Shown: positions 3,685-36,397 of the stretch, in pieces | How the letters are laid out: the number at the start of each line of letters is the position of its first letter | Numbering within the stretch: the first letter of the stretch is position 1 | Source: Microbacterium testaceum | GTDB taxonomy: Bacteria; Actinomycetota; Actinomycetes; Actinomycetales; Microbacteriaceae | DNA: 64,000 nucleotides | Assembly (NCBI RefSeq): GCF_029761935.1 | Contig: NZ_CP121699.1 | Location: 3,162,001 to 3,226,000, forward strand | Reading direction: 5' to 3' | Notes under the pieces: model-generated | The model's database searches: none | What the model saw: the letters and a program-made list of their open reading frames with translations, nothing else | Told to the model about the DNA's origin: nothing | Made by a program: the position numbers and the translations under genes

Positions 3685-4464
<780 letters not shown>

Positions 4465-4484: not shown

Positions 4485-5573
4485 TCAGCGCGCCTTGGGC
4501 GCGAACACCGCCGCCACGATACGGGCGATCAGGTTGAAGATGACGACGAGGACGACGAGCAGGAAGGCCGCACCCCAGGCGTTCGCCTGAGACGCATCGA
4601 TGTCCTGACCGGGGAAGCTGTACGCGGTGTAGGCCATCACGGGGAGGGTCTGCATCGGGCCTTCGAACGGGTTGGCGTTGAAGTTGTCGGTGAAGCTCGC
4701 CGCGATGAAGATCGGCGCGGTCTCACCGACGACGCGGGCCACCGCCAGTACGACACCGGTGATGATTCCCGATGCGGCGGTGCGCAGCACGACCTTGATG
4801 ATCGTCGCCGAGCGCGGCACGCCCAGCGCGAGGGACGCCTCGCGCAAGTCGGCCGGGACGAGGCGCAGCATCTCTTCGGTGGAGCGGATGACGATCGGGA
4901 TCATCAGTACGCAGAGGGCGATGGATGCCGAGAACCCGCTGAACGCCTTCGGACCGACGACCAGGCTGAACAGCGAGAACGCGAACAGACCGGCGACGAT
5001 CGAGGGGATGCCGGTCATCACGTCGACGAGGAAGGTGATCGCGCGACGCAGTGGGTTGTTCGGCTGTGCGTACTCGACCAGGTAGACCGCGGCGAGGACC
5101 CCGATCGGCACCGAGATGAGGGCGGCGATACCCGTGATGATGAGGGTGCCCGTGATGGCCTGCCAGGCGCCCGCCGTCGCGACGACCTCGAGGGTGTCGG
5201 GGTTGAAGGCGGTGCCGCCCACCTGCGTGACGAAGTTCCAATTGACCACCGCGAGGCCCTTGGAGACCACGGTCCACAGGGTCGAGATGAGGGGTGCGAC
5301 CGCGAGGAGGAACGCGACGGTCACCAGGCCGCGGACGACGCGGTCCACCGCCTTGCGGCGATTCTCGACGATCGAGGACCCGACCCCGATGGCGATCAGG
5401 TACAGCACCGCCGAGAGGATCAGCCACGTCGCCAGGGTGAAGCCGCCCAGCAGGAGCTGGAGGACCGCGACCACGACGGCCACGCCGACCAGGAGCGCGG
5501 GCTCGATGAAGCGGGGCAGCTGGCCGCTGGTGAGGGCCAGGGGAGACGAGGACGAGGGGGCCGTGACGGTCAT
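4485..5573 (-). CDS. pstA: Phosphate ABC transporter permease PstA
   Basis: A 362-residue inner-membrane permease with about eight hydrophobic segments. The N-terminal portion ([19 protein letters not shown]) is longer than in E. coli PstA. The permease EAA-type loop is near residue 245-265 ([19 protein letters not shown]). PstA pairs with PstC to form the phosphate channel. Its ATG overlaps the pstC stop in an ATGA, indicating translational coupling. Confidence 0.95.
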
Positions 5574-6589
5574 GAGCGCTTGCCCTTCTTGCGACCCTTC
5601 GCACCGGGGCCCGTCGCCCCGATGATGTAGCGGGCGAGCATGTTCACCGCGAGAGAGACGACGAACAGCATGAGGCCGGTACCGATCAGCGCCGAGCGCT
5701 GGAGGTCGGTGGCGATGGGGAAGTTCAGCGCGATGTTGGCCGCGATGGTCTGCGAGTTGTATCCGTCGGTGAGCAGCAGCACCGAGTAGATCAGGCTGGG
5801 CGAGACGATCAGCGCGATGGCCATCGTCTCTCCGAGCGCACGGCCGAGGCCGAGGAGCGTGGCCGAGACCATGCCGCTGCGGGCGTAGGGGAAGACCGCG
5901 AGGCGGATCATCTCCCAGCGCGTGGCGCCCAGCGCGAGGGCGGCCTCTTCGTGCAGGCGCGGGGTCTGCAGGAAGATCTCGCGCGTGATCGAGGTGACGA
6001 TCGGGAGGATCATCACGGCGAGGACGACACCACCGGTGAACATCGTCGAACCCGTGGTCGAGACCGGGCCCTGGAAGAGCGGGATCCAGCCGAGGTACTG
6101 GTTGAGGAACTCACCGACCGGCACGAGCAGCGGGCGCATGACGATGATGCCCCACAGACCGAAGACGATCGAGGGGACCGCGGCCAGCAGGTCGACGATG
6201 TAGCCGAGGAAGCCGGCGATCCGACGCGGGGCGTAGTGCGAGATGAACAGCGCGATGCCGATGGCGACCGGCGTGCCGATGACCATGGCGATGAGCGCGG
6301 CCCAGATGCTGCCGAACAGCAGCGGGCCGACGTACTCCCAGAAGTTGGTCCAGCTGCCGTTCTGGTAGCCGGCGAGGTCGCCCTCGGTCCAGTTGCCGGT
6401 GATCGCGGGGATGCCGCGGATGATCAGGAAGATCGCCACCCCGGCGAGGATGATCATGATCGACACGGCGGCCGTGGTCGACAGCCCCAGGAAGACCGAA
6501 TCGCCGACGCGGCGCTTGCCGACGATCGACGTCCGAGGCGGGGGAGGGGAGGACGGGGCGGTCTCTGTGTCAGCGACGGTGTCAGTCAC
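5570..6589 (-). CDS. pstC: Phosphate ABC transporter permease PstC
   Basis: About 339 residues with six or more membrane helices; the permease loop HEEAALALGATRWEMIR is near residue 225. I place the start at the GTG at 6589, reading MTDTVADTETA. A GAGG element lies six bases upstream, and a short upstream reading frame ends across this codon. An in-frame GTG at 6610 would add seven residues and cannot be excluded. PstC forms the phosphate channel with PstA. A strong hairpin separates it from pstS, which would allow more PstS than permease to be made. Confidence 0.93.
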   Translation of the reverse strand: MTDTVADTETAPSSPPPPRTSIVGKRRVGDSVFLGLSTTAAVSIMIILAGVAIFLIIRGIPAITGNWTEGDLAGYQNGSWTNFWEYVGPLLFGSIWAALIAMVIGTPVAIGIALFISHYAPRRIAGFLGYIVDLLAAVPSIVFGLWGIIVMRPLLVPVGEFLNQYLGWIPLFQGPVSTTGSTMFTGGVVLAVMILPIVTSITREIFLQTPRLHEEAALALGATRWEMIRLAVFPYARSGMVSATLLGLGRALGETMAIALIVSPSLIYSVLLLTDGYNSQTIAANIALNFPIATDLQRSALIGTGLMLFVVSLAVNMLARYIIGATGPGAKGRKKGKRS

Positions 6590-6617
6590 GGGGGACCTCA
6601 CGCTCGGCACGGGTCAT
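6582..6617 (-). CDS. Eleven-codon upstream ORF coupled to pstC
   Basis: A strong ribosome site (GAGGAGAACC) precedes an ATG at 6617 that is out of frame with pstC and encodes only MTRAEREVPRD. Its TGA lies just past the proposed pstC GTG, so the two frames overlap by eight bases. It could be a coupling leader that delivers ribosomes to pstC. It could also be the remnant of an older pstC N-terminus after a frameshift, or a sequencing error. Conservation of the peptide is unknown. Confidence 0.4.
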   Translation of the reverse strand: MTRAEREVPRD

Positions 6618-6744: not shown

Positions 6745-7872
6745 TTACTTGATCGACGCGAGGGTCTCGGCAGCAGCCGAGAGCACCGAGTCGGGCAGCG
6801 GCGCGGAGCCGGCGTTCTTGGCCGCGACCTGCTGGCCGAGCGTGCTGGTCACGAAGCCGAGGTACGACTTCACGAGCTCGGACTGCTTGGCGTCCTTGAA
6901 AGTGGTGCAGGTGACGGCGTACGACACGAGCGGGATCGGGTACGTCTCAGCGGTGAGCTTCGAGTAGTCGAACTTCTTCGACAGGTCGCCGGCGACACCG
7001 TTGCTGGCGTCGACCGCGGCGGCCGCGAAGGTCGCGGTGACGGCCTCGGGGCTGTACGCGATGGCGGTGCCGTCCTGGATGATCGACGCGGCGTTCAGGC
7101 TGCCGATGGCGGAGTGGTCGGCGTAGCCGATGGTTCCGGTGCCGGCCTTGACGGCCTCGACGACGCCCGAGCCACCCTTCTGCTTCGACACGTTGCCCTC
7201 GATGGGCCAGTCCTTGCCCGCGGGCGAGGTCCAGACCGACGACTGCGTCGCGGCGAGGTAGTTTGTGAAGTTCTGCGTGGTGCCCGAGCCGTCGGAACGC
7301 GCGACGGTGGTGATGGCGCCGGCGGCGAGGGCCGTGCCGTTGTCCTTGGTGATGGCCGGGTCGGACCAGTCGGTGATCTGCAGAGCGAAGATCTTCGCGA
7401 TCGTCTCGCCCGAGAGCTTCAGGCTCGTGACGCCGGGGATGTTGAAGATGATGGCCACGCCGTCGAGGTAGACGGGGATGTTGACGCCACCCTCGGTGCA
7501 GAGGGCCTTGGACTGGGCCGTCTGGTCCGCGTTCAGCGGCGAGTCGGACCCGGCGAAGTCGTACGCGCCGCTGAGGAAGTTGGTGACGCCACCGCCGGAG
7601 CCCTGCGACTTGTCGTAGTTGATGGTGACGCCCTTTGCCTGGGCGTTGTAGGCGCTGGTCCACGCGGCCTGCGCGTTGGCCTGGGCGCTCGAGCCACCCG
7701 CGGTGATCGTGCCCGAGAGGTTCGGGTCGATGGTGAACGCGACGTCGGACGAGGTAGACGAGGGGGTCGAGCCCGCGGCGTCGCCGGAGCCCGAGGGGCC
7801 GGCGCAGCCGGCGAGGGTCAGGGAGGCCACGGCGGCCACGGTGCCCAGCTGGGCGAGTCGGGAGATCTTCAC
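6745..7872 (-). CDS. pstS: Phosphate-binding lipoprotein PstS
   Basis: A 375-residue substrate-binding lipoprotein. The N-terminus has a basic start, a hydrophobic core and lipobox LAGC (Cys near residue 23), followed by a Ser/Gly/Thr-rich linker. Typical PstS phosphate-site segments are visible: TITAGGSSAQANAQAAW, YDKSQGSGGGVTNFLSG and FAGSDSPLN near 55-115, and ARSDGSGTTQNFTNYL near 205. Start chosen at GTG 7872, eight bases after AAGGA; an in-frame ATG six codons upstream would spoil the ribosome-site spacing. It is the first gene of the pst operon, behind a PHO-box-like repeat. Confidence 0.96.
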   Translation of the reverse strand: MKISRLAQLGTVAAVASLTLAGCAGPSGSGDAAGSTPSSTSSDVAFTIDPNLSGTITAGGSSAQANAQAAWTSAYNAQAKGVTINYDKSQGSGGGVTNFLSGAYDFAGSDSPLNADQTAQSKALCTEGGVNIPVYLDGVAIIFNIPGVTSLKLSGETIAKIFALQITDWSDPAITKDNGTALAAGAITTVARSDGSGTTQNFTNYLAATQSSVWTSPAGKDWPIEGNVSKQKGGSGVVEAVKAGTGTIGYADHSAIGSLNAASIIQDGTAIAYSPEAVTATFAAAAVDASNGVAGDLSKKFDYSKLTAETYPIPLVSYAVTCTTFKDAKQSELVKSYLGFVTSTLGQQVAAKNAGSAPLPDSVLSAAAETLASIK

Positions 7873-7963
7873 GGTGTGAATCCTTCGCATGTCGGGAACA
7901 GGAACCCGGTGCAGGGTTCGTCGTGAACGGTAAACAGCGACTGCTAACAGACTGCGTTGCACG

Positions 7964-7981
7964 GGTGAACGGAAGGTGAAC
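7964..7981 (-). promoter_or_regulatory. PHO-box-like direct repeat upstream of pstS
   Basis: On the minus strand the site reads GTTCACC, four bases, GTTCACC, with repeat starts 11 bp apart. This matches the direct-repeat units bound by PhoP/RegX3-type phosphate regulators in actinobacteria. It lies about 90 bases upstream of pstS and about 50 bases upstream of the divergent synthetase gene, so it could affect either. The repeat direction points towards pstS. Binding is inferred from sequence only. Confidence 0.75.
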
Positions 7982-8031: not shown

Positions 8032-11000
8032 GTGACGACCTCCGCTTCCGAAGCTCAGGCCCCGCTCGACCGGACGGGGGCCGCGGCTCCCGCGCGCACC
8101 CTGATCGACATCCTCACTGGCGTCGCGTCTCGGCATCCGGAGGCCTCCGCGATCGACGACGGATCGGGAGCCCTCAGCTACCGCGAACTGCTCGCGCGGG
8201 TGTGGCGGACGGCGGCGGCCCTGCACGAGGCGGGGGTGCGTCGGGGCGACCGCGTGGGCGTCCGCATGCCGTCCGGGTCGAAGGAGCTGTACGTCTCGAT
8301 CCTCGCGGTCATGGCGGCGGGCGCCGCTTACGTGCCGGTGGATGCCGATGACCCCGACGAGCGCGCGCGCCTGGTGTTCGGCGAAGCCGGGGTGCGCGGC
8401 ATCGTCGCGGGGGAGGGGGAATTCGTCGCGGCCGAGGGCGATCTCGTCCGTCTCTACGACGGAGCGGCACCGCACCCGAGCACGAGTGCCGTCCCCATCG
8501 TCGCCCCGCCCACGATCGACGACGACGCGTGGATCATCTTCACCTCGGGATCCACGGGCGTCCCGAAGGGGGTGGCGGTGTCTCACCGTTCCGCGGCGGC
8601 GTTTGTCGAGGCGGAGGGGCGGATTTTCCTGCAGGGCGAGCCGCTCGGCCCCGGCGACCGCGTGCTGGCCGGACTGTCGGTCGCGTTCGACGCCTCGTGC
8701 GAGGAGATGTGGCTCGCCTGGGGACACGGGGCGTGCCTCGTGCCGGCTCCTCGTTCTCTCGTGCGCTCGGGGGAGGACCTGGCCCCGTGGTTGCTGCGGC
8801 AGGGGATCACGGTCGTCTCGACCGTTCCGACCCTCGCCGCGATGTGGCCGGCCGACTCGATCGAGAACGTGCGCCTGCTGATCTTCGGCGGAGAGGCGTG
8901 TCCGCCCGAGCTCGCCGCTCGCCTCGTGGCCGAGGGGCGCGAGGTGTGGAACACCTACGGTCCGACCGAGGCCACCGTCGTGGCGTGCGCGGCTCCGCTC
9001 GACGGCTCTCTGCCCGTGCGCATCGGCCTGCCCCTCGACGGGTGGGCCCTCGCCGTGGTGGATGCCGAGGGACTCCCCGTCGCCGAGGGCGCGGTGGGCG
9101 AGCTGATCATCGGCGGTGTCGGCCTCGCCCGGTATCTCGATCCCGCGAAGGACGCCGAGAAGTACGCACCGATGCCGACCCTCGGGTGGGAGCGGGCGTA
9201 TCGCTCGGGAGACCTCGTGCGCTTCGAGCGCGAGGGGCTGGTGTTCCAGGGGCGCGCGGACGATCAGGTCAAGGTGGGCGGCCGCCGGATCGAGCTCGGC
9301 GAGGTCGAGTCGGCCCTGCAGGATCTTCCGGACGTGAGCGCGGCGACCGTGGCGGTGCGGACCACCGAAGCGGGGGTGCCGGTCCTCGTCGGCTATCTCG
9401 TGATGGAGGTCGGAGCCGAGCTCGATCGCGGGGCTGCCCGTGCGGCTCTCGCGGAACGACTCCCGGCCGCGACCATCCCCCTCCTCGGCGTGGTGGACTC
9501 GCTCCCGGTCCGCACCTCGGGCAAGGTCGACCGCGCGGCCCTCCCGTGGCCCCTGCCGGGGGTGGAAGCCCCCGCCGCGACGGACTTCTCGGTCGACGAG
9601 GCCTGGCTGGCCGAGCAGTGGCAGGCCGTTCTGGGCATTCCCGTCACCGAGCGCAAGGCCGACTTCTTCGATCTCGGTGGGGGGTCGCTCGCCGCCGCGC
9701 AGCTCGTCTCGCGCATCCGGGCACGGGTGCCGGAGTTCTCGGTCGCCGACATCTACGACGTACCGCGCCTCGGGGCCATGGCCAAGGCGCTGGGGCCGCA
9801 GCTCTCCGACGAGACGCCCGCCGCCTTCCACCGCGCCGAACCGACGCCGCGCACCACCCAATGGGCGCAGACCCTCCTCGGCGCTCCGCTGTTCATCCTC
9901 TCGGGTGTGCGGTGGCTGCTGTACCTGCTCACGGCCTCGGCGCTCCTTCGGCTCGTCCCCGGATTCGACGTGCTGCCGTCGGTGCCCTGGCCGGCTCTCG
10001 TCGTCGGTCTCCTCGTCTTCGCGACGCCGTTCGGGCGCATGGCCATCGCCGTGGCATCCGCTCGACTTCTTCTCTCCGGCGTGCGCCCCGGCGACTATCC
10101 GCGGGGCGGGTGGGTGCACATCCGGCTCTGGCTCGCCGAGCAGATCGCCGATCAAGTGGATGCCGTGGGTCTGGCCGGAGCCCCCTGGGTGTCGTACTAC
10201 GCCCGGGCGCTGGGCGCGCGGATCGGTCGGAACGTCGACCTGCACGCGTTGCCTCCCGTCACGGGGATGCTCGTCGTCGGCGACGGGGCCTCGATCGAGC
10301 CCGAGGTCGACCTGACCGGGTACTGGATCGACGGCGACCTCGTCCGCATCGGCGACCTGCGCATCGGCGCCGAGGCCACGGTCGGCGCTCGCTCGACGCT
10401 CGCACCCGGCACCCGCATCGGTCGTCGTGCCGAGATCGCGCCGGGCTCGGCCGTCTTCGGACGCGTCAAGGCGGACCAGTCGTGGGCGGGATCGCCCGCC
10501 GTCCGCGTGGGCGGGACGGCGAAGGGGTGGCCGACGCAGCGGCCGCCGGCGCCCACCCGCTGGCTGTGGGCCTACGCGGCGTCGGCGGTGGTGCTCGCTC
10601 TTCTCCCGCTCGCCTCCTTCACCGTGGGTGGTCTCGTCGTGGCGCAGGGGATCCGCGGGGCGGGCGATCTCGGCCACGCGGCCGCGGGCGCCTTCGCCTG
10701 GCTCGTCCCGGGTGTCGCCGTCGCGGGCCTGGTGTTCGCGGCATCCGTGGTGCTTCTCGTGCGCGTGATGTCGATCGGCCTCACCGAGGGCACCCACCCG
10801 GTGCGCAGCCGCGTGGCGTGGCAGGCGTGGACGATCGAAAGACTCCTGGATGCCGCCCGCACGGTGCTCTTCCCCCTCTACTCCTCGCTGTTCACGCCCG
10901 TGTGGCTGCGCATGCTGGGTGCGCGCGTCGGACACGACGTCGAGGCCTCGACGGTTCTTCTCATCCCGTCGATGACGCGCATCGAAGACGGGGCGTTCCT

Positions 11001-11970
11001 CGCCGACGACACGATGGTCGCGTCGTACGAACTGCGCGCGGGGTGGATGCGCATCGGGCCCGTACGGATCGGCAAGCGCGCCTTCCTCGGCAACTCCGGA
11101 ATGGCCGCGCCCGGCCACCGCGTTCCTCGGGACGGGCTGGTCGCCGTGCTGTCCGCGGCTCCGATGAAGGCCAAGGCGGGATCGTCGTGGTTGGGCTCGC
11201 CCGCGGTGCGTCTTCGCCGGCTCTCGGCCGAGGGCGACGAGTCGCGCACCTATCGACCGACCGCGAGCCTGCGTCTCGCGCGGACGCTGTGGGAGCTGTG
11301 CCGCTTCGTGCCGGTCGTCGTCACCTGCGCGATTGGCCTCGGCGTGATCTTCGCTCTCGCCGCGCTCTGGGACGCGCTCGGTCCGGTGTGGACGCTGCTG
11401 TTGTCGGGCGTCGTGCTGCTCGCGGCGGGGGCTGTCGCCGCGGGGTTCTCGACCGCGGCGAAGTGGGCCATCGTCGGCGTGATCCGCGCGGGCGAGCAGC
11501 CGCTGTGGTCGAGCTTCGTCTGGCGCACCGAAGTGTCGGACACCTTCACCGAGATGGTCGCGGCCCCGTGGTTCGCGCGCGCGGCGGCGGGAACCCCGGC
11601 GCTCGCCGTCTGGCTGCGCAGCCTCGGCGCGAAGATCGGTCGCGGCGTGTGGTGCGACAGCTATTGGCTGCCCGAACCCGACCTGGTCACGTTGGGCGAC
11701 GCGTCAACCGTCAACCGCGGATGCGTCGTTCAGACGCACCTGTTCCATGATCGAATCATGAGTATGGATACCGTCGAGCTGGAGCCGGGGTCGACCCTCG
11801 GTCCGCACAGCGTCGTCCTCCCCGCCTCCACCCTCGGCGCGCACGCGACCGTGGGGCCCGCCTCGCTCGTCATGCGCGGTGAGACCGTCCCGGTCGGTTC
11901 GCGGTGGAGCGGCAACCCCATCGGTCCGTGGCGCGCGGTGAAGGTGCGCGCGTACCAGTCGACGACGTGA
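8032..11970 (+). CDS. Pls/PosA-family single-module peptide synthetase
   Basis: A 1312-residue membrane-bound NRPS of the poly-epsilon-lysine synthetase type. Residues about 20-510 are an adenylation domain: A3 FTSGSTGVPKG near 170, A4 FDASCEEMW near 220, A5 NTYGPTEATV near 307, A7 YRSGDLVRF near 390, A8 DDQVKVGGRRIELGEVE near 414, A10 SGKVDR near 498. A carrier domain follows with DLGGGSL near 547 (Ser near 552). The rest lacks a classical condensation or thioesterase domain. It alternates three pairs of membrane helices (about 614-678, 843-913, 1087-1157) with three left-handed beta-helix (hexapeptide) domains (about 725-827, 959-1062, 1197-1300), as in Pls. The product is probably an isopeptide-linked homopolymer of an amino acid. 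My reading of the specificity residues is D-A-E-S-I-G-T-V-V-K; the acidic E at the third position suggests a basic amino acid. GTG start; TACTGT at 8018-8023 may give a very short leader. Confidence 0.88.
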   Translation: MTTSASEAQAPLDRTGAAAPARTLIDILTGVASRHPEASAIDDGSGALSYRELLARVWRTAAALHEAGVRRGDRVGVRMPSGSKELYVSILAVMAAGAAYVPVDADDPDERARLVFGEAGVRGIVAGEGEFVAAEGDLVRLYDGAAPHPSTSAVPIVAPPTIDDDAWIIFTSGSTGVPKGVAVSHRSAAAFVEAEGRIFLQGEPLGPGDRVLAGLSVAFDASCEEMWLAWGHGACLVPAPRSLVRSGEDLAPWLLRQGITVVSTVPTLAAMWPADSIENVRLLIFGGEACPPELAARLVAEGREVWNTYGPTEATVVACAAPLDGSLPVRIGLPLDGWALAVVDAEGLPVAEGAVGELIIGGVGLARYLDPAKDAEKYAPMPTLGWERAYRSGDLVRFEREGLVFQGRADDQVKVGGRRIELGEVESALQDLPDVSAATVAVRTTEAGVPVLVGYLVMEVGAELDRGAARAALAERLPAATIPLLGVVDSLPVRTSGKVDRAALPWPLPGVEAPAATDFSVDEAWLAEQWQAVLGIPVTERKADFFDLGGGSLAAAQLVSRIRARVPEFSVADIYDVPRLGAMAKALGPQLSDETPAAFHRAEPTPRTTQWAQTLLGAPLFILSGVRWLLYLLTASALLRLVPGFDVLPSVPWPALVVGLLVFATPFGRMAIAVASARLLLSGVRPGDYPRGGWVHIRLWLAEQIADQVDAVGLAGAPWVSYYARALGARIGRNVDLHALPPVTGMLVVGDGASIEPEVDLTGYWIDGDLVRIGDLRIGAEATVGARSTLAPGTRIGRRAEIAPGSAVFGRVKADQSWAGSPAVRVGGTAKGWPTQRPPAPTRWLWAYAASAVVLALLPLASFTVGGLVVAQGIRGAGDLGHAAAGAFAWLVPGVAVAGLVFAASVVLLVRVMSIGLTEGTHPVRSRVAWQAWTIERLLDAARTVLFPLYSSLFTPVWLRMLGARVGHDVEASTVLLIPSMTRIEDGAFLADDTMVASYELRAGWMRIGPVRIGKRAFLGNSGMAAPGHRVPRDGLVAVLSAAPMKAKAGSSWLGSPAVRLRRLSAEGDESRTYRPTASLRLARTLWELCRFVPVVVTCAIGLGVIFALAALWDALGPVWTLLLSGVVLLAAGAVAAGFSTAAKWAIVGVIRAGEQPLWSSFVWRTEVSDTFTEMVAAPWFARAAAGTPALAVWLRSLGAKIGRGVWCDSYWLPEPDLVTLGDASTVNRGCVVQTHLFHDRIMSMDTVELEPGSTLGPHSVVLPASTLGAHATVGPASLVMRGETVPVGSRWSGNPIGPWRAVKVRAYQSTT

Positions 11971-13265
11971 GCGTGGCCGACCCCTACGCCCCGCAGAGCG
12001 GCGACCTCTCGTACGACGTCGAGTCGTACGACCTCGCGATCGGCTATCGCGTCCGCACGAACCGCCTCGACGGCGTCGCCACGATCGTCGCGGTCGCGCG
12101 GGAGGCCGTGCCGTCGTTCGCCCTCGATCTCGTCGGCCTTCGAACGTCGCGCGTGCGCGTCGACGGTGCGATCGCGCGATTCTCGGCGGGGCCGCGGGTC
12201 CTGCGGGTGACACCCCCGCGGGCTCTCGCCGCCGGGGACCGCTTCGAGGTCGAGGTGACCTACGCGGGTGCGCCCGCTCCCCGCCGGTCGCGGTGGGGAA
12301 CCGTGGGCTGGGAGGAGCTGTCCGACGGCGCTCTCGTCGCGGGGCAGCCCATCGGCGCCCCGACATGGTTCCCGTGCAACGACCGCCCCGACAACAGGGC
12401 GCGCATGCGCCTCGAGATCACGGTCGACGACGGCTACGTCGCCGCCGCCACCGGCGTCGCGGGCCCCACTACGCGGCGGGGCGGCCGGACGACGACGACG
12501 TTCGTCTCCGACGTCCCCACGGCGACGTACCTGGCGGCCGTGCACGTCGGTCGGTACCGCACGCGTCAGCTCGAGGGCACCGGTGACGCCCTGGTGCCCG
12601 CCGTCACGGTCACCGCCCCTCCCGCCCTGACCGCCGCGGTCGATCGCGCCTTCGCGACGGTGCCCGACATGCTGCGGGCCTTCGACCGCTTCTTCGGGCC
12701 GTACCCCCAAGAAGCGTGCACCCTCGTGGTGACCGCCGACGAGCTCGAGATCCCCCTCGAGGCGCAGGGGCTCGCCGTGTTCGGGATGAACCACCTCGTT
12801 CCCGCCGCGCAGCGTCTGGTGGCGCACGAGCTGGCCCATCAGTGGTTCGGCAACAGCGTCGGCATCGCCCGGTGGAGCGACATCTGGCTCAACGAGGGCT
12901 TCGCCTGCTACGCGGAGTGGCTGTGGTCGGAGACCTCGGGCGGGGCCTCCGTCGAGTCGTGCGTCGCGGACTATTACGCGCGACTCGCCGCGAAGCCGCG
13001 CGACCTCCTGCTGGTCGATCCCGGACCCGATGACATGTTCGACGACCGGGTCTACAAGCGCGGGGCCCTGACGCTGCACGCGCTGCGTCGCACCCTCGGC
13101 GACGAGGCGTTCTTCGATCTCCTGCGGTCGTGGACGGCGGACCACCGCCATGCCCTCGTCACCACGGATGATTTCCGCGCCGCGGTCGAGCGCGCCGGGG
13201 GACCGGATGCCGCGGCGGTGCTGTCGCGGTGGATCGACGACGTGGCAGTGCCCGCGCGACCCTGA
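11967..13265 (+). CDS. M1-family zinc metallopeptidase
   Basis: A 432-residue M1-family (gluzincin) aminopeptidase-like protein. An N-terminal beta domain carries the block GAPTWFPCNDRPDNRARM near residue 130. The zinc site is HELAHQWFGNS near residue 290, followed by WLNEGFACYAEWLW with the third ligand Glu. A substrate-recognition loop resembles LEAQGLAVFGM. There is no signal peptide, so it should be cytoplasmic. At 432 residues it lacks the long C-terminal helical domain of PepN-type enzymes. The GTG start lies inside the stop codon of the peptide synthetase (GTGA), so the two proteins are probably made together. A role in trimming or recycling the polymer is possible but unproven. Confidence 0.9.
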   Translation: MSVADPYAPQSGDLSYDVESYDLAIGYRVRTNRLDGVATIVAVAREAVPSFALDLVGLRTSRVRVDGAIARFSAGPRVLRVTPPRALAAGDRFEVEVTYAGAPAPRRSRWGTVGWEELSDGALVAGQPIGAPTWFPCNDRPDNRARMRLEITVDDGYVAAATGVAGPTTRRGGRTTTTFVSDVPTATYLAAVHVGRYRTRQLEGTGDALVPAVTVTAPPALTAAVDRAFATVPDMLRAFDRFFGPYPQEACTLVVTADELEIPLEAQGLAVFGMNHLVPAAQRLVAHELAHQWFGNSVGIARWSDIWLNEGFACYAEWLWSETSGGASVESCVADYYARLAAKPRDLLLVDPGPDDMFDDRVYKRGALTLHALRRTLGDEAFFDLLRSWTADHRHALVTTDDFRAAVERAGGPDAAAVLSRWIDDVAVPARP

Positions 13266-13624: not shown

Positions 13625-14968
13625 TTAGAAGGGTGGGGGTGTGCCGTCGTCGTCGGGGTCGGGCGGGGGTGGGTCGTCGGGGAGGAAGCGGACGGCGGGG
13701 GAGTAGGGGAGGGGTTCGTCGGTGTAGGTGCGGCCGGTGGGGCTGGTCCAGTGGAGGATTCCGCCGGGGAGTTGTTTCACGCTCCAGCGGGTGAACTGCT
13801 TCTGGGTGTGGTGGCGTTGGCAGAGGTGGGCGAGGTTTGCGACGTGGGTGGGGCCGCCGAGGGCGTGGTCGCGGGTGTGGTCGACTTCGCAGCGGATGGC
13901 GGGGACGGTGCACCCGGGCCAACGGCAGCGGCGGTCGCGGGCGCGGAGGTAGCGGTCGATGGCGGTGGTGCGGTGGTAGGTGTCGGTGTGGAGGACGGCA
14001 CCGGTGACGGGGTGGGTGATGACGCGGTCCCAGGGTAGGGTGGTGGCTTCGGCGAGGCTGCGGGCGGTGGCGGCGTCGAGGGGGCCGTGCCCGATGAGGT
14101 CGGCGGGGTCGTGATGCTCGGCGGTGGGGTCGAGGATCGTGAGGGCCGGGACGACGACCTGGACGCGGGCGCGGATGGTTCCGAGGGTGCCGGGGCCGTC
14201 GTCGGTGCGGGTGGGGTCGGCTTCGGGGGCTGCGGTGAGGAGCAGGTCGGTGAGGATGTCGGCGCGGAGCTGCGCGGTGGTGCGTTCGTCGCTGGCTGCC
14301 TGGGGGTCGTCGAGGCGGGCGTCGATGAGGGCTCTGGCTTGGAGGGTGAGGCGGTCGTGGATTCCGATGGCGAGGACGGTGGGGAGGGTGGCGACGAGGT
14401 CCGACATTCCGTCGGGGCCGGTCACGATTCTCACGCATCGGGTGTCGCGGCCGCGGTGGTGGCGCTCGGTGAGGGTGGTGGGGTACAGGCGTTCGGCGAG
14501 GGCGGCGAGGCGTGAGCGGAGGCGCCCGGGGCTGAGGCCTTCTGCGGTGCTCACCGCGAGGGCGTCGAACTGTTCCCGCACCTCGACGGGGAGGGGTGAG
14601 CCGACATCGAGGATGGTGTTCACGTGGGTGCGGGTCAGGGCACCGGCCTCCCACGCCGACAACGTGTCGGGGTAGTCGTCGACGAGGGTCATCGCCCGGG
14701 TGATCTGGGTCTGCACGGTGCGGTCGGAGAGGTTCTCGGCCGCGGCGATCTCGGATGCCACCTCGCGCAGGGCGAGCTCGGCGGCGCGGGAGGACGCGCA
14801 CTGTCCCGCCATGACGTCGAGGGCGAGGTGGCCGGCCTCGGCGAGGGCGCGGGTGCGGGCAGCGTCGGCTGCAGCGAGAGCCGTCCTGGCGCGGTGGACC
14901 TCGTCGACGAGCACCGACAGAACGCGGGGTCCGTCGGTGGGGTTCGTCGCGGAGGAGCCATCGTGCAT
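13625..14968 (-). CDS. DUF222/HNH endonuclease-signature protein
   Basis: A 447-residue member of the actinobacterial DUF222 plus HNH family (13E12-like). The N-terminal two thirds are helical and contain LSDRTVQTQITRAMTLVDD near residue 80. The C-terminal HNH domain near 340-400 carries CRWPGCTVPAIRCEVDH, HALGGPTHVANLAHLC and RHHTQKQ, with Cys and His residues that fit an HNH zinc-binding nuclease. The tail is proline- and aspartate-rich. These genes are multicopy in many Microbacteriaceae and their role is unknown; a selfish or DNA-exchange function is speculative. TAGCAT (14980-14975) ends exactly seven bases before the ATG, supporting a leaderless start. Confidence 0.88.
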   Translation of the reverse strand: MHDGSSATNPTDGPRVLSVLVDEVHRARTALAAADAARTRALAEAGHLALDVMAGQCASSRAAELALREVASEIAAAENLSDRTVQTQITRAMTLVDDYPDTLSAWEAGALTRTHVNTILDVGSPLPVEVREQFDALAVSTAEGLSPGRLRSRLAALAERLYPTTLTERHHRGRDTRCVRIVTGPDGMSDLVATLPTVLAIGIHDRLTLQARALIDARLDDPQAASDERTTAQLRADILTDLLLTAAPEADPTRTDDGPGTLGTIRARVQVVVPALTILDPTAEHHDPADLIGHGPLDAATARSLAEATTLPWDRVITHPVTGAVLHTDTYHRTTAIDRYLRARDRRCRWPGCTVPAIRCEVDHTRDHALGGPTHVANLAHLCQRHHTQKQFTRWSVKQLPGGILHWTSPTGRTYTDEPLPYSPAVRFLPDDPPPPDPDDDGTPPPF

Positions 14969-15075: not shown

Positions 15076-15717
15076 TCAGGCGTCTGCAGCGACGGTCTCC
15101 GCGGGCGCAGGCGTCGCCACAGCGAGCACGACGCCGTCAGGACCGTCGAGGTCCCATCCTCGCCATCCGCGAGCGCCTGCGACGAGCTCGTCGTCGCTTC
15201 TCGACCACGCCTGACCACGCGGAACCGGCCGCACCCGAGCCAGCCATGTCGTACCGTCGAGCGCCACCTCCACCTGCTGCGGGTCCACGACGATGCCCCG
15301 TCCGTCCGCTTTGAGGACGGCTTCCACCCGCGCCCACGCCCGGGCCTGCGCGCGGTCCGGTCCCCCCGCAGGGGACGCCCGGGTGATTCTCTCGGCAACC
15401 CCGGTGGGCCAGAGATACGCCTCCGCCGGAAGCACCCGCTCCAGACCCCCCGCATCGGCGGGCACCGCGTCCAGCCCGACGCGCTCGTAACCCCGCGCCG
15501 CCACCGCGACGGCCCACCCCTCGACGTACGACACCGAGACCGCGGCATCCGCCCCCTCCACGCGGATGCGGCCGTGGTCCCCGCCGCACGCGGGGCAGCG
15601 TGAGCGGAACCGAGCGCCCGGCAGGAGCTCGGCCAGCAGAGCCCGCGACACGTCTCGGCGCGCGGAGCCCGCGGGGACCTCGCGCCAGACGAGACGGATG
15701 CCGCTGGGAAGCGTCAC
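15076..15717 (-). CDS. 4'-phosphopantetheinyl transferase
   Basis: A 213-residue protein with the Sfp-type transferase pattern: an RCPACGGDHGRI block near residue 40, VSVSYVEGWAVAVAA near 60, the metal-binding VGLDAV near 80, and ARAWARVEAVLKADGRG near 125. In the last block the usual KEA is VEA, but the Glu is kept. The enzyme moves phosphopantetheine from CoA to a serine of a carrier domain, so the synthetase at 8032 is the obvious client in this window. Its GTG overlaps the stop of the upstream NUDIX gene (GTGA), making it the last gene of ppk-mutT1-PPTase. Confidence 0.85.
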   Translation of the reverse strand: MTLPSGIRLVWREVPAGSARRDVSRALLAELLPGARFRSRCPACGGDHGRIRVEGADAAVSVSYVEGWAVAVAARGYERVGLDAVPADAGGLERVLPAEAYLWPTGVAERITRASPAGGPDRAQARAWARVEAVLKADGRGIVVDPQQVEVALDGTTWLARVRPVPRGQAWSRSDDELVAGARGWRGWDLDGPDGVVLAVATPAPAETVAADA

Positions 15718-16664
15718 ACCTTTGGTTCGTGCGTCTCGATGGCCACGATGCCGGCGCCGGGGTGCTCGACGGGGATATGCACGACCGAGAACGCCGCGGG
15801 CTCCAGCGCCGAAGCGCTCCCGAGGTACGAGCCGCCCATGGTTCCGGTCGCGAGCGCGAGCTCGTGCAGGATGTCGGGCAGGACGGGTCGGTGGCTCGAC
15901 ACGACGACCGGCTTGCGCGCGCGCACCCGTTCGCCGATGAGCGACCGGGCGTCGGCGTGGCCCTCTTCCCACGCGTCCTGGCTGACAGCCTCGGTCAGGT
16001 GGATGCGCTGGCCGAGGGCTTGGGCGAGGGGAGCGGCGGTGCGGACACAGCGCTCGGCGGGGCTCGAGTAGACCCGACGCACACCGAAGGCGAGGAGGGG
16101 ACCGACGATCGCCTCGGCCTGGCGGCGCCCGCGCGGGGTCAGGGGGCGGGCGCTGTCGGAGCCCTCCCACTCCTCGCGGGCCCGCGCCTTGCCGTGGCGC
16201 AACACGACGATCGGGAAGGTGGGCAGGGCCCCCTCTTCGACGATCCGCGTGAACTCGTCGAGGATCTCGATGTCGACGGGGTAGCTGAGGTTCTTTCGGG
16301 CCTTCTTCAGGCTCACCCACTCGATCGCCGCGACCTCTTTGTTCGGCACGAACGTCGAGCTGCGCACGGCGGCATCGGTCGCCTCGGCCGCCCAGTAGTG
16401 CACGATCTTGGTGCGTGAGCTCGGCATCCGGTATCGAGAGACCCCGACGGGCACCCCGAGCGAGACGCGGATGCCGGTCTCTTCACGGATCTCGCGCACG
16501 GCGGTCTCGGCGAGCGTCTCGCCGGGGTCGACCTTGCCCTTCGGGAGGGTCAGATCCCGGTACTTCGTGCGGTGGATGAGCAGGATGCGGAGCTTCCCCT
16601 CGACCTGCCGCCACACCACACCGCCGGCCGCGTAGACGGCGGTCTCGATCTCGGTCCTCGTCAC
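15714..16664 (-). CDS. mutT1: NUDIX hydrolase fused to histidine phosphatase (MutT1-like)
   Basis: A 316-residue two-domain protein. The N-terminal NUDIX domain (about residues 10-140) has the box [20 protein letters not shown] with glutamates in place. The C-terminal histidine-phosphatase domain starts at VVLRHGKA near residue 165 and has [11 protein letters not shown] near 210 and [11 protein letters not shown] near 265. This layout matches mycobacterial MutT1, which removes 8-oxo-dGTP and cleaves diadenosine polyphosphates. It starts with GTG inside the ppk stop (GTGA) and is followed by an overlapping transferase gene. Polyphosphate and nucleotide-pool roles fit this operon. Confidence 0.9.
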
Positions 16665-18829
16665 CGCGCCGTCCGGGCCCGACGCTTGCGCTGGACGAGA
16701 GCCATCGTGTGCTCCTGCAGGTCGATGAGGGGCGCCCCGGCATCGTCGACGCTGTGCCGCGTCCACTCGCCCTCGGAGCCCAGGTGCCACGAGCTCGTGC
16801 CGTCGTCCATCGCCAGGGTGAACAGGGTCGTCAGCTCTTGCACCTGCACGGGGTCGACCACGCGAACAAGGGCCTCGACGCGGCGGTCGAGGTTGCGGTG
16901 CATCATGTCGGCGCTGCCGATGAACACCTGCGGGTCGCCGTCGTTCTCGAACGTGAAGATGCGGGAGTGCTCGAGGTAGCGGCCGAGGATGGAGCGCACC
17001 GTGATGTTCTCGCTCATCCCGGGGACGCCGGGTTTGATCGAGCAGATGCCGCGCACCCACACTTCGACGGGCACGCCCGCCTGGCTCGCGCGGTACAGGG
17101 CATCGATGATCTCTTCGTCGACCATCGAGTTGACCTTGATCCGCACCCCCGAGGGCTTGCCCTCGAGAGCGTTGCGGCGCTCCTTGTCGATGTGGCGCAG
17201 GAGCCCTCGGCGCAGGTGCAGGGGTGCGACGAGCAGACGCTTGAACTTCTTCTCGATCGCGTACCCGCTCAACTCGTTGAACAGACGCGTGAGGTCGCGA
17301 CCGACCTGGTCGTCGACGGTGAACAGGCCGAAGTCCTCGTAGATACGGCTCGTCTTGGGGTTGTAGTTGCCCGTGCCGACGTGGCTGTAGTGGCGCAGGC
17401 GCCCCTCTTCTTCGCGGATGACGAGGGCGAGCTTGCAGTGGGTCTTGAGGCCGACGAGGCCGTAGACGACGTGGACGCCCGCCTTCTCGAGCTTGCGCGC
17501 CCAGACGATGTTGTTGGCCTCGTCGAAGCGGGCCTTCACCTCGACGAGCGCGAGCACCTGCTTGCCGGCCTCGGCCGCGTCGATGAGCGCCTGCACGATG
17601 GGGCTGTCGCCCGACGTCCGGTACAGCGTCTGCTTGATCGCGAGCACGTGCGGGTCGCGGGCGGCCTGCTCGAGGAAGGCCTGCACGCTCGTCGCGAACG
17701 ACTCGTAGGGGTGGTGCACGAGCACGTCGCCCTTGCGGATCGCGCCGAACAGGTCGGCGCGGCCGTTCTGCTCGGGCGGCTGGAAGGCCAGAGCCGTCTT
17801 GGGTACGTGCGGCGGGTAGCGCAGATCGGGCCGGTCGATGCGCGAGAGGTCGAACAGGCCGCGCAGATCGAGGGCGCCGGGAAGGCGGTAGACCTCCTGC
17901 TCGGTGATGTCGAGCTCGCTCAGCAGCAGCGAGCGGGTCACGTCGTCCATGTCCTCGGTGATCTCGAGGCGGATGGGCGGGCCGAAGCGGCGACGCAGGA
18001 GCTCGGCCTCGAGCGCCTGGATGAGGTTCTCGGTCTCGTCCTCTTCGATCGTCATGTCCTCGTTGCGCGTCAAGCGGAACGCGTGGTGATCGAGGACCTC
18101 CATCCCGGGGAACAGGTCGCCGAGGTGGTTCGAGATGAGCTCCTCGAGCGGCAGGTAGCGCACGCCGGGCCCGTCTCCGCCGATCTCGACGAAGCGGGGG
18201 AGCATGGGGGGCACCTTGAGACGCGCGAACTCCTGGCGGCCCGTGCGGGCGTTGCGGATGCGGATCGCGAGGTTCAGCGACAGGCCCGAGATGTACGGGA
18301 ACGGGTGCGCGGGGTCGACGGCCAGCGGCATGAGCACCGGGAAGACGTTGCGCTGGAAGTACTCGGTGAGCCGCTCGGCGGTGGGCTCGTCGAGCGAGTC
18401 CCACGTGACGACCTCGATACCGGCGTCGGCGAGAGCGGGGCGCACCTTCTCGGTCCAGGCGGCGGCGTGGCGGAGCTGCAGGCGGTGCGCCTCGGCCGAG
18501 ATGTCGGCGAGCACGTCGAGCGGGGCGCGACCGACGTTGGTCGGGACGGCCAGGCCCGTGACGATGCGGCGCTTGAGGCCGGCGACGCGCACCATGAAGA
18601 ACTCGTCGAGGTTGCTGGCGAAGATCGCGAGGAAGTTCGCGCGCTCGAGCACGGGGACCGTGGGGTCTTCGGCCAGTTCGAGCACGCGCTGATTGAACGA
18701 CAGCCAGCTGATCTCGCGGTCGAGGTAGCGGTGGTCGGGAAGCTGGTCGTCCTCGGCCTCTACGGCCTCGTCGAAGTCGTCGTCGTCGGCGTCGCCGAGA
18801 CCGGCATCCAGCGAGTCGTGTTCCATCAT
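16661..18829 (-). CDS. ppk: Polyphosphate kinase 1
   Basis: About 722 residues; reversible transfer of the ATP gamma-phosphate to polyphosphate. Recognised segments are [19 protein letters not shown] near residue 30, [13 protein letters not shown] near 70, the catalytic-core block [14 protein letters not shown], the His-containing [12 protein letters not shown] (autophosphorylated histidine) and [13 protein letters not shown]. An aspartate/glutamate-rich tract sits at the N-terminus. The start is ambiguous between adjacent ATGs at 18829 and 18826 and an in-frame GTG at 18835; no strong ribosome site is present. A PHO-box-like repeat lies 22 bases upstream. Confidence 0.95.
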
Positions 18830-18850
18830 CCCCACATCATTGCAGGGGTC

Positions 18851-18885: not shown

Positions 18886-19578
18886 TTATGCGGAGGGGGA
18901 TGCCGCGGCGGGGGCGTCGTCTTCGTAGACGTTGAACCGGTACCCGACGTTGCGCACCGTGCCGATGAGCTGCTCGAGATCGCCGAGCTTCGCGCGCAGG
19001 CGTCGCACGTGCACGTCGACCGTGCGCGTGCCGCCGAAGTAGTCGTAGCCCCAGACCTCGCTCAGCAGCTGCTCGCGCGTGAAGACGCGCGAGGGGTGCG
19101 TGGCGAAGAAGTGCAGGAGCTGGAACTCCTTGTAGGTGAGGTCGAGGGGCTTGCCGTGCACCTTCGCCGAGTAGGACGACTCGTCGATCGTGATGCCCGA
19201 GGTCTGAATGCGCGTGGAGACCTGATCGGCGGCGCGACGGCCCATCGCGAGTCGGATGCGCGCGTCGATCTCGGCGGGACCGGCGCCGACCAGGACGACG
19301 TCGTCGATGCCCCAGTCGGTGGAGACCGCGGTGAGTCCGCCCTCGGTGACGATCAGCACGAGCGGCGCCTCGACGCCGGTGGTCGTCAGGATCTTGCTGA
19401 GCGACTTCGCGCCGACCAGGTCGAAGCGCGCGTCGACGAAGATGACGTCGGCGCTGGGGGCGTTCACCAGCTGCGCGGCCTCGGCGGGGATCTGTCGGAC
19501 GCGGTGGCTCAGCAGTTCGAGCGCAGGCAGGGCCGCGCCGCCGCCCGGGGCGGAGCTGAGTACCAGAAGCTGTGCCAA
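18886..19578 (-). CDS. glnR: GlnR-type OmpR-family regulator
   Basis: A 230-residue response-regulator-like protein. The receiver domain is atypical: it has [10 protein letters not shown] near residue 46 but no conventional acidic pocket, and [19 protein letters not shown] near 90-110 resembles the GlnR receiver. The winged helix near 135-220 carries [19 protein letters not shown] and the recognition region [19 protein letters not shown]. GlnR controls nitrogen assimilation genes and dimerises without phosphorylation. Start is TTG at 19578, five bases after GGGAGG. It lies just upstream of ppk in the same direction but is probably a separate unit. Confidence 0.82.
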
Positions 19579-36184: not shown

Positions 36185-36397
36185 GTTTTCTTCTCCTTCA
36201 CCGGCAGGTACGTGCCGGACGATCCGTAGTGAATGGAATGAACGGGGGCGACCCCGTGCGCCCGACGCTGGGCGTATTCGTCAGTATCGCACGTGTCTGG
36301 TCATTTCTCAGCCAGCCTGGCTACCATCGATGCTCGGTCGCCCCACCCGCGCGGCCCCCCTGATTTCATGCGGCATCGTCCGTGCCCGGAAGGTTTC

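Follow-up and report, generated by a model that had tools for sequence, protein, structure and literature searches.

The question raised by this locus is which polymer its synthetase makes, and which of the surrounding genes take part in making and degrading it. The window, i.e. the whole stretch of 64,000 nt of the Microbacterium testaceum genome that was analysed (NZ_CP121699.1, positions 3,162,001 to 3,226,000), contains pls, which encodes a synthetase of the Pls/PosA type, followed by an overlapping gene for an M1 metallopeptidase and by a gene for a diverged 4'-phosphopantetheinyl transferase (PPTase). Judged by its sequence, this is a pls-pldII operon of the already known coryneform kind. 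We estimate a probability of about 87% that Pls polymerises L-lysine to epsilon-poly-L-lysine (epsilon-PL), which is used to preserve food, that the peptidase cleaves the polymer, and that the PPTase activates the carrier domain of the synthetase. The domain layout, the specificity code of the adenylation (A) domain, the catalytic residues, the conserved gene order and the co-occurrence of the genes were all observed in this analysis. The features concerned are as follows.

8032 to 11970, plus strand: pls, predicted epsilon-poly-L-lysine synthetase, GTG start, 1312 amino acids (profile searches, alignment, structure model)
Within Pls: A domain, about residues 32 to 504; carrier domain, residues 525 to 587 (serine S552); C1-C3 region, residues 596 to 1312
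11967 to 13265, plus strand: M1 zinc metallopeptidase, PldII-like, 432 amino acids (PF01433, 98.5 bits)
15076 to 15717, minus strand: diverged Sfp/PptT-like PPTase, 213 amino acids (PF01648, 22.4 bits; structure model, alignment)

The Pfam matches in Pls are AMP-binding (residues 32-367), PP-binding (525-587) and a single Hexapep stretch (777-808), so that the one A domain and one carrier domain of the original prediction are borne out. Its assignment to the Pls/PosA type agrees with the NCBIfam family TIGR02353 ("Pls/PosA family"), which matches residues 612-1297 with 709 bits, well over the cut-off of 423. The three beta-helix domains with helix pairs that it had also described are seen when residues 596-1312 are modelled with AlphaFold2 (mean pLDDT, i.e. 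predicted local distance difference test, 90.7; 51-row alignment), Pfam alone showing one hexapeptide stretch. The model contains three short-strand beta-helix stretches with a helix pair before each, and the pairs of these six predicted membrane helices agree with hydrophobic stretches in the sequence. Among the 50 Foldseek matches listed for this model, most are hexapeptide acyltransferases, e.g. serine acetyltransferase; their template modelling scores are low, each target spanning one of the three units. Neither a condensation domain, nor a second module, nor a thioesterase is among the Pfam and NCBIfam families found in Pls, and the predicted lack of the latter two, and with it a homopolymer as product, is thus supported. 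The carrier serine S552, whose loss in homologues had been named as a counter-argument, is kept in 121 of 121 aligned sequences. One A and one carrier domain, a terminal domain with six helices and three acyltransferase-like units, and a lysine-type code together place the protein among the Pls enzymes.

The specificity residues were read from an alignment of 121 proteins (the window Pls, 40 from the genus and 80 from named actinobacterial loci). They are D220, A221, E224, S263, I284, G286, T308, V316, V317 and K498, i.e. DAESIGTVVK, the same ten residues, not degenerate, that the sequence had originally been read to hold. The closest solved A domain, 7wew (616 bits), is titled "epsilon-poly-L-lysine synthase" and has an identical code, and this identity, with glutamate at the third position, upholds the earlier claim of a basic amino acid as substrate. 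The code is found in 120 of the 121 aligned proteins, a uniformity that partly reflects selection, the 80 named loci having been picked via an A-domain search. The remaining protein, from Kocuria polaris (L114), reads DAESIGTVIK, one position different, and no M1 match was found downstream of its pls. The best identity of a named-locus Pls to that of the window is 69% (Planctomonas), and that of the Streptomyces albulus-like locus L073 (Streptomyces sp. MspMP-M5, with an A domain 92% identical to 7wew) is 52% in the best tblastn segment.

The Pls/PosA family spans several diamino acids, according to passages of PMC10522769, and the window enzyme could accordingly be imagined to make a homopolymer of another basic amino acid, such as ornithine, diaminobutyrate or beta-lysine, like the PosA, PDAP, PDAB and beta-lysine synthetases. 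We regard this as very unlikely, because the codes differ: the same source gives DMEHNGTVSK for PosA (ornithine) and DGESISVVNK for the epsilon-poly-beta-lysine synthetase, and it ties alanine at code position 2, as present in the window, to the lysine enzyme. Five full-length Pls-like relatives in a class-wide sample (see below) carry yet another code, of the DFE type. Parts of the study by Jiang et al. (PMC8117764) report that a coryneform Pls expressed in S. coelicolor yields epsilon-poly-L-lysine, and name Microbacterium as one of the genera that have Pls homologues. We conclude that epsilon-poly-L-lysine is the most likely product. The original prediction had called the product undescribed; this is not supported, and a new polymer was rejected, since the code equals that of a known synthase.

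Jointly with pls, the peptidase gene forms a GTGA overlap of stop (TGA) and start (GTG) codons at 11967-11970 (reading ACGACGTGAGC), exactly as originally noted. Downstream of Pls, all 40 genus loci and 69 of 80 named loci have an M1 match; of the eleven named loci without a match, four lie at the end of a contig, and among the 69 with a match L095 has an interrupted Pls frame. A class-wide sample drawn with the terminal-domain family, a fairer test than the A-domain-selected named loci, comprised 120 of 129 listed matches (three others were already included or were the window itself, and six weak-end matches were left out). Here, M1 adjoins 94 of the 99 lysine-code loci versus 0 of the 21 others. 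Of the five lysine-code misses, one has an M1 gene 2.1 kb off (L180) and four have none. The 21 others consist of the five full-length DFE-type proteins, seven A domains of neighbouring non-ribosomal peptide synthetases (NRPSs), for which the distance to M1 was taken from the NRPS A-domain frame, and nine proteins without an A-domain core motif; two of the 21 (L273, L274) have M1 elsewhere in the stretch, and the other 19 have none on the same strand. A start codon for the peptidase at position -4 relative to the end of Pls exists in 37/40 genus, 45/69 named and 60/95 class-wide loci. The pairing is kept across the class and is therefore not due to chance. The 4-nt overlap of pls and pldII in S. 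albulus has already been published (PMC4361855), and Jiang et al. already noted, in the parts of PMC8117764 used here, that a peptidase accompanies Pls and not other synthetases.

HEXXH, the zinc glutamate and the tyrosine are kept in 110 of 110 aligned M1 peptidases. The best PDB relative of the window peptidase is the M1 zinc metalloprotease 6a8z (6a8z/6iff; full-length match, 198 bits), which we take to be from Deinococcus; we know of no association of this protein with a polymer synthetase. An alignment with the M1 peptidase coupled to pls in L073 gives 43% identity over 435 columns, which supports the originally proposed polymer-degrading role of the window enzyme. Release of a primer by the peptidase, the other role suggested at first, was dropped, as no evidence supports it.

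Where the peptidase would act is a separate question. The PldII activity of S. albulus is reported at the cell surface, outside the membrane (passages of PMC9223678 and PMC9205021), and this location, together with the 43% identity to the S. albulus-like enzyme, would fit an enzyme that protects the cell from its own exported polymer, the function proposed for PldII. Neither a signal peptide nor a membrane helix was seen at the N terminus of the window peptidase, by hydrophobicity and by eye. Twin-arginine-like leaders occur in eight of the 69 named peptidases, each of them from Streptomyces (L073, L074, L076, L077, L078, L080, L081 and L090), and were found in none of the 40 genus relatives, the 61 other named or the 95 class-wide peptidases. 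These counts come from a simple rule (RR followed by an uncharged hydrophobic stretch) that was devised after the leaders had been seen and is not a trained predictor; nor is the earlier hydrophobicity cut-off, which picked out a single one of the 69 named peptidases and overlooked most of these leaders. In a FastTree phylogeny that comprises 121 sequences and was read for topology only, with three DFE-type proteins as outgroup, seven of the eight leader-bearing Streptomyces form an early branch, the eighth (L090) lies beside it with Kitasatospora-type sequences, and the window belongs to the large remaining group. The missing leader makes self-protection outside the cell improbable for the window enzyme. 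The window peptidase lacks a leader and is therefore predicted to be intracellular, and a cytosolic location is likewise predicted for the peptidases of most of these bacteria.

Carrier domains are activated by PPTases, and a candidate for this task is encoded tail-to-tail with the peptidase gene; its start overlaps the stop of a NUDIX gene by 4 nt. The structure model (pLDDT 86) shows a PPTase fold with 34 PDB matches at E<=0.001, of which 31 are titled PPTase and three are titled "Transferase", from Mycobacterium; identities to the fold matches, including mycobacterial PptAb/PptT and Sfp, are 15-22%. An alignment of 25 family members has a conserved CxxCG..HG, an invariant aspartate and the block W...EAxxKADGRG. 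The fold, the conserved aspartate and the W...EAxxK block thus speak for Sfp-type membership, which the Pfam score leaves below its cut-off. Orthologues scoring at least 90 bits are present in 58 of 58 genus genomes with Pls and in 0 of 41 without (n=99), a line set after the gap between 90.3 and 66.8 bits had been seen and a raw count that, like those for PHO boxes below, ignores kinship. Among the 58 are 33 genomes that did not feed the alignment, and all 33 carry the orthologue. The PPTase gene lies within 6 kb of pls in 56 of the 58 genomes, one of the exceptions (G063) being located at contig ends.

Several results weigh against the proposed reading. The PPTase scores 22.4 bits with the Pfam ACPS model, under the curated cut-off of 25, and PF01648 at 1e-3 is matched by only 5 of the 25 family members. 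Two residues past the conserved aspartate the window protein has a non-acidic residue (GLDAV), many relatives having GIDAE. In one genome (G058) the PPTase gene is on another contig, not beside pls. On the side of the product, ten-residue A-domain codes can mislead. C. variabile itself gave no detectable epsilon-PL in culture, as stated in passages of PMC8117764, and by analogy the window operon may be silent.

The PPTase could also be a general enzyme for several carriers that merely lies nearby. Sfp-type enzymes are often promiscuous, and weaker PPTase-like matches occur in 16 of the 41 genus genomes without Pls. Against such a general role, none of the 41 sampled genomes without Pls has the orthologue of at least 90 bits, and the tail-to-tail order of M1 and PPTase genes recurs in other families (22/95 class loci, four of them from this genus, and 6/72 named loci); lineages with this order among the named loci include Arthrobacter, Humibacillus, Pseudarthrobacter and Brachybacterium. 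In one of these 28 loci the PPTase gene is on the other strand. Many relatives have M1 and PPTase genes that overlap at their ends; in the window a DUF222 gene intervenes. Elsewhere in the genome, PF01648 has just one match (E<=10), at 1566924 with E 6.7e-12, which is read as AcpS, judged by its length. Taking these points together, we consider a merely nearby general enzyme unlikely and propose the PPTase as the activator of the Pls carrier domain.

The resulting mechanism would start with the PPTase (15076-15717), which would make the carrier domain active. The A domain would adenylate L-lysine and load it onto the phosphopantetheine arm of this single carrier domain. The membrane-embedded C1-C3 domains would form epsilon-poly-L-lysine by linking one lysine after another through its epsilon-amino group, and the M1 zinc peptidase, whose translation is coupled to that of Pls, would cut the polymer, in the window organism presumably inside the cell. 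Lysine activation, the epsilon linkage, polymer cleavage and the target of the PPTase are here transferred from characterised relatives.

Unexpectedly, the operon is flanked on both sides by genes of phosphate uptake and polyphosphate metabolism.

3685 to 4464, minus strand: pstB (profile match)
4485 to 5573, minus strand: pstA (profile match)
5570 to 6610, minus strand: pstC (profile match)
6745 to 7890, minus strand: pstS, phosphate-binding protein, divergent from pls (TIGR00975, 182.9 bits, under the cut-off of 205; start at ATG 7890 or at a GTG slightly downstream)
7964 to 7981, minus strand: PHO-type box GTTCACC-N4-GTTCACC, perfect tandem repeat that faces pstS and lies 50 bp before the start of pls
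13625 to 14968, minus strand: DUF222 gene with a weak HNH match, between the peptidase and PPTase genes
15714 to 16664, minus strand: NUDIX plus histidine phosphatase protein (profile match), with GTGA overlaps with ppk1 (upstream) and the PPTase gene (downstream)
16661 to 18850, minus strand: ppk1, polyphosphate kinase (profile match; start approximate)

The genes for ppk1, the NUDIX-histidine phosphatase protein (presumably "MutT1-like") and the PPTase form a minus-strand chain of 4-nt GTGA overlaps, because of which the PPTase gene probably shares a transcript with ppk1. The overlap of the NUDIX and PPTase genes is four bases in 11 of 20 genus loci that have both on one strand. A match of any kind to the DUF222 gene was found in 3 of 40 genus loci; L069 has a 71% match in a similar position. 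Upstream of ppk1, in the same cluster, a GlnR-type regulator is encoded (18886-19578), and nitrogen and phosphate control may meet here.

We examined 40 of the 57 genus loci besides the window. In 23 of the 40, pls is at the pst location (21 of these 23 with ppk1 and NUDIX in reach); in the other 17 it lies elsewhere, none with ppk1 in the stretch. Two Arthrobacter loci were also noted, one with pls 8-10 kb from ppk1/NUDIX (L106) and one with pls 5.6-7 kb from pst genes (L100).

The repeat between pstS and pls, GTTCACCTTCCGTTCACC, is an exact tandem repeat of PHO-box type. Among the pst-linked genus loci, a perfect box lies within 300 bp of pls in 14 of 23, those with pstS at a distance of 0.2-0.3 kb, and in 0 of the 9 with pstS at 0.8-1.2 kb. 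In the unlinked genus loci, a box with <=3 mismatches is found upstream of pls in 1 of 17. The perfect box is found only where pstS is close to pls, so that in this genus it belongs to pstS; it may or may not act on pls. Plain membership of the window pls in the Pho regulon is not claimed, because the box points at pstS and because of the 1 in 17. A sigma-70-type promoter site was not found in a consensus scan, which is weak for high-GC actinobacteria.

Outside the genus, boxes on the pls strand with <=3 mismatches within 200 bp upstream were found in 17 of 80 named loci (expected 0.61 from shuffles and 1.09 from other windows) and in 21 of 93 class loci (expected 0.65 and 1.08). At <=2 mismatches the values are 7/80 and 13/93, with 0.1 or less expected. 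Pooled, the two samples give 38 of 173, against an average of 2.5 when the heptamer is permuted (400 versions); the top four permutations reach 19 to 28 of 173 and resemble shifted readings of the same repeat, and a variant with a 12-base period also gives 19. The opposite strand is mildly enriched too (5/80 and 6/93 at <=3 mismatches, about 1 expected). The signal is lineage-bound, with fractions of 12/14 in family f30, 4/5 in other genera of the window's family, 3/3 in f2 and 1/1 in f9, against 0/20 in f24, 1/33 in f11 and none in the other nine families (17 loci). In the S. albulus-like L073, the 300 bp upstream of pls yielded no PHO-type box. A review (PMC9695796, used in part) describes phosphate-limited culture for maximal epsilon-PL formation by S. 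albulus, which fits a phosphate link of pls.

These results bear on whether the pst/ppk1 placement has functional meaning or reflects a fortuitous local gene order within a single clade. An accident would account for the 17 of 40 genus loci elsewhere, with their one weak box, for the 9 of 23 pst-linked loci with a more distant pstS and no box within 300 bp of pls, for the orientation of the window box towards pstS, and for the near absence of pls-strand boxes from f24 and f11. It does not account for the enrichment of pls-strand boxes in two samples from other genera, nor for the PPTase gene, which follows pls and M1 at pst-linked and unlinked places alike and in the window sits in the ppk1 chain. 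We regard the two possibilities as evenly balanced.

Compared with known systems, the window shares with pls-pldII of S. albulus the A-T-C1-C2-C3 layout, the code DAESIGTVVK (7wew) and the 4-nt overlap (PMC4361855, in part), and differs in its leaderless peptidase and in its PPTase and pst/ppk1 neighbours. With the Pls operon of Corynebacterium variabile it shares the coryneform type, a peptidase gene in the operon and, by prediction, epsilon-PL as product, in the case of C. variabile obtained by heterologous expression; the likeness is one of description (passages of PMC8117764). The delta-poly-L-ornithine synthetase PosA of Acinetobacter baumannii has the same protein family and terminal domain and differs by methionine at code position 2 (alanine in the window) and by its single-gene operon (PMC10522769, in part). 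The words "phosphate" and "phosphopantetheinyl" do not appear in the main text of PMC8117764. In the open literature, we found no report tying polylysine to a PPTase, to PhoP, phosphate limitation or a PHO box as here, or to polyphosphate, and none of a leaderless or cytoplasmic form of the degrading enzyme. The PPTase partner, the phosphate setting, the PHO-type boxes upstream of pls elsewhere and the leaderless peptidase, all predicted from sequence, would thus be new relative to that literature.

Some further features were noticed. Nine proteins of the class-wide sample have the TIGR02353 terminal domain without an A-domain core motif in frame (L155, L173, L176, L177, L181, L232, L266, L268 and L269), and seven loci have an NRPS A domain with the code DIWQSTADDK beside a TIGR02353-type domain (L156, L178, L179, L183, L194, L217 and L263); we presume that these may be streptothricin-like beta-lysine systems. 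The window also contains an msiK RNA motif (36187-36244, minus strand, 64.9 bits) and a gene pair for a SigK-type extracytoplasmic function sigma factor and its anti-sigma factor (415-1820).

The regulation of epsilon-PL biosynthesis and its natural role have been called less well understood (PMC8117764, in part). It is conceivable, though we hold it to be rather doubtful, that epsilon-PL, in many actinobacteria other than the S. albulus group, is not mainly an exported antibiotic and would be a phosphate-controlled, partly intracellular polycation, with induction by PhoP at low phosphate, a PPTase supplied from the ppk operon, cytosolic recycling to lysine and a possible pairing with polyphosphate. 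The operon alone adds one more epsilon-PL operon of the coryneform type, and it is its context that matters: conditions that could wake or explain operons of this kind are suggested by the PHO-type boxes, by the PPTase gene linked to ppk1 and by the peptidase without a leader.

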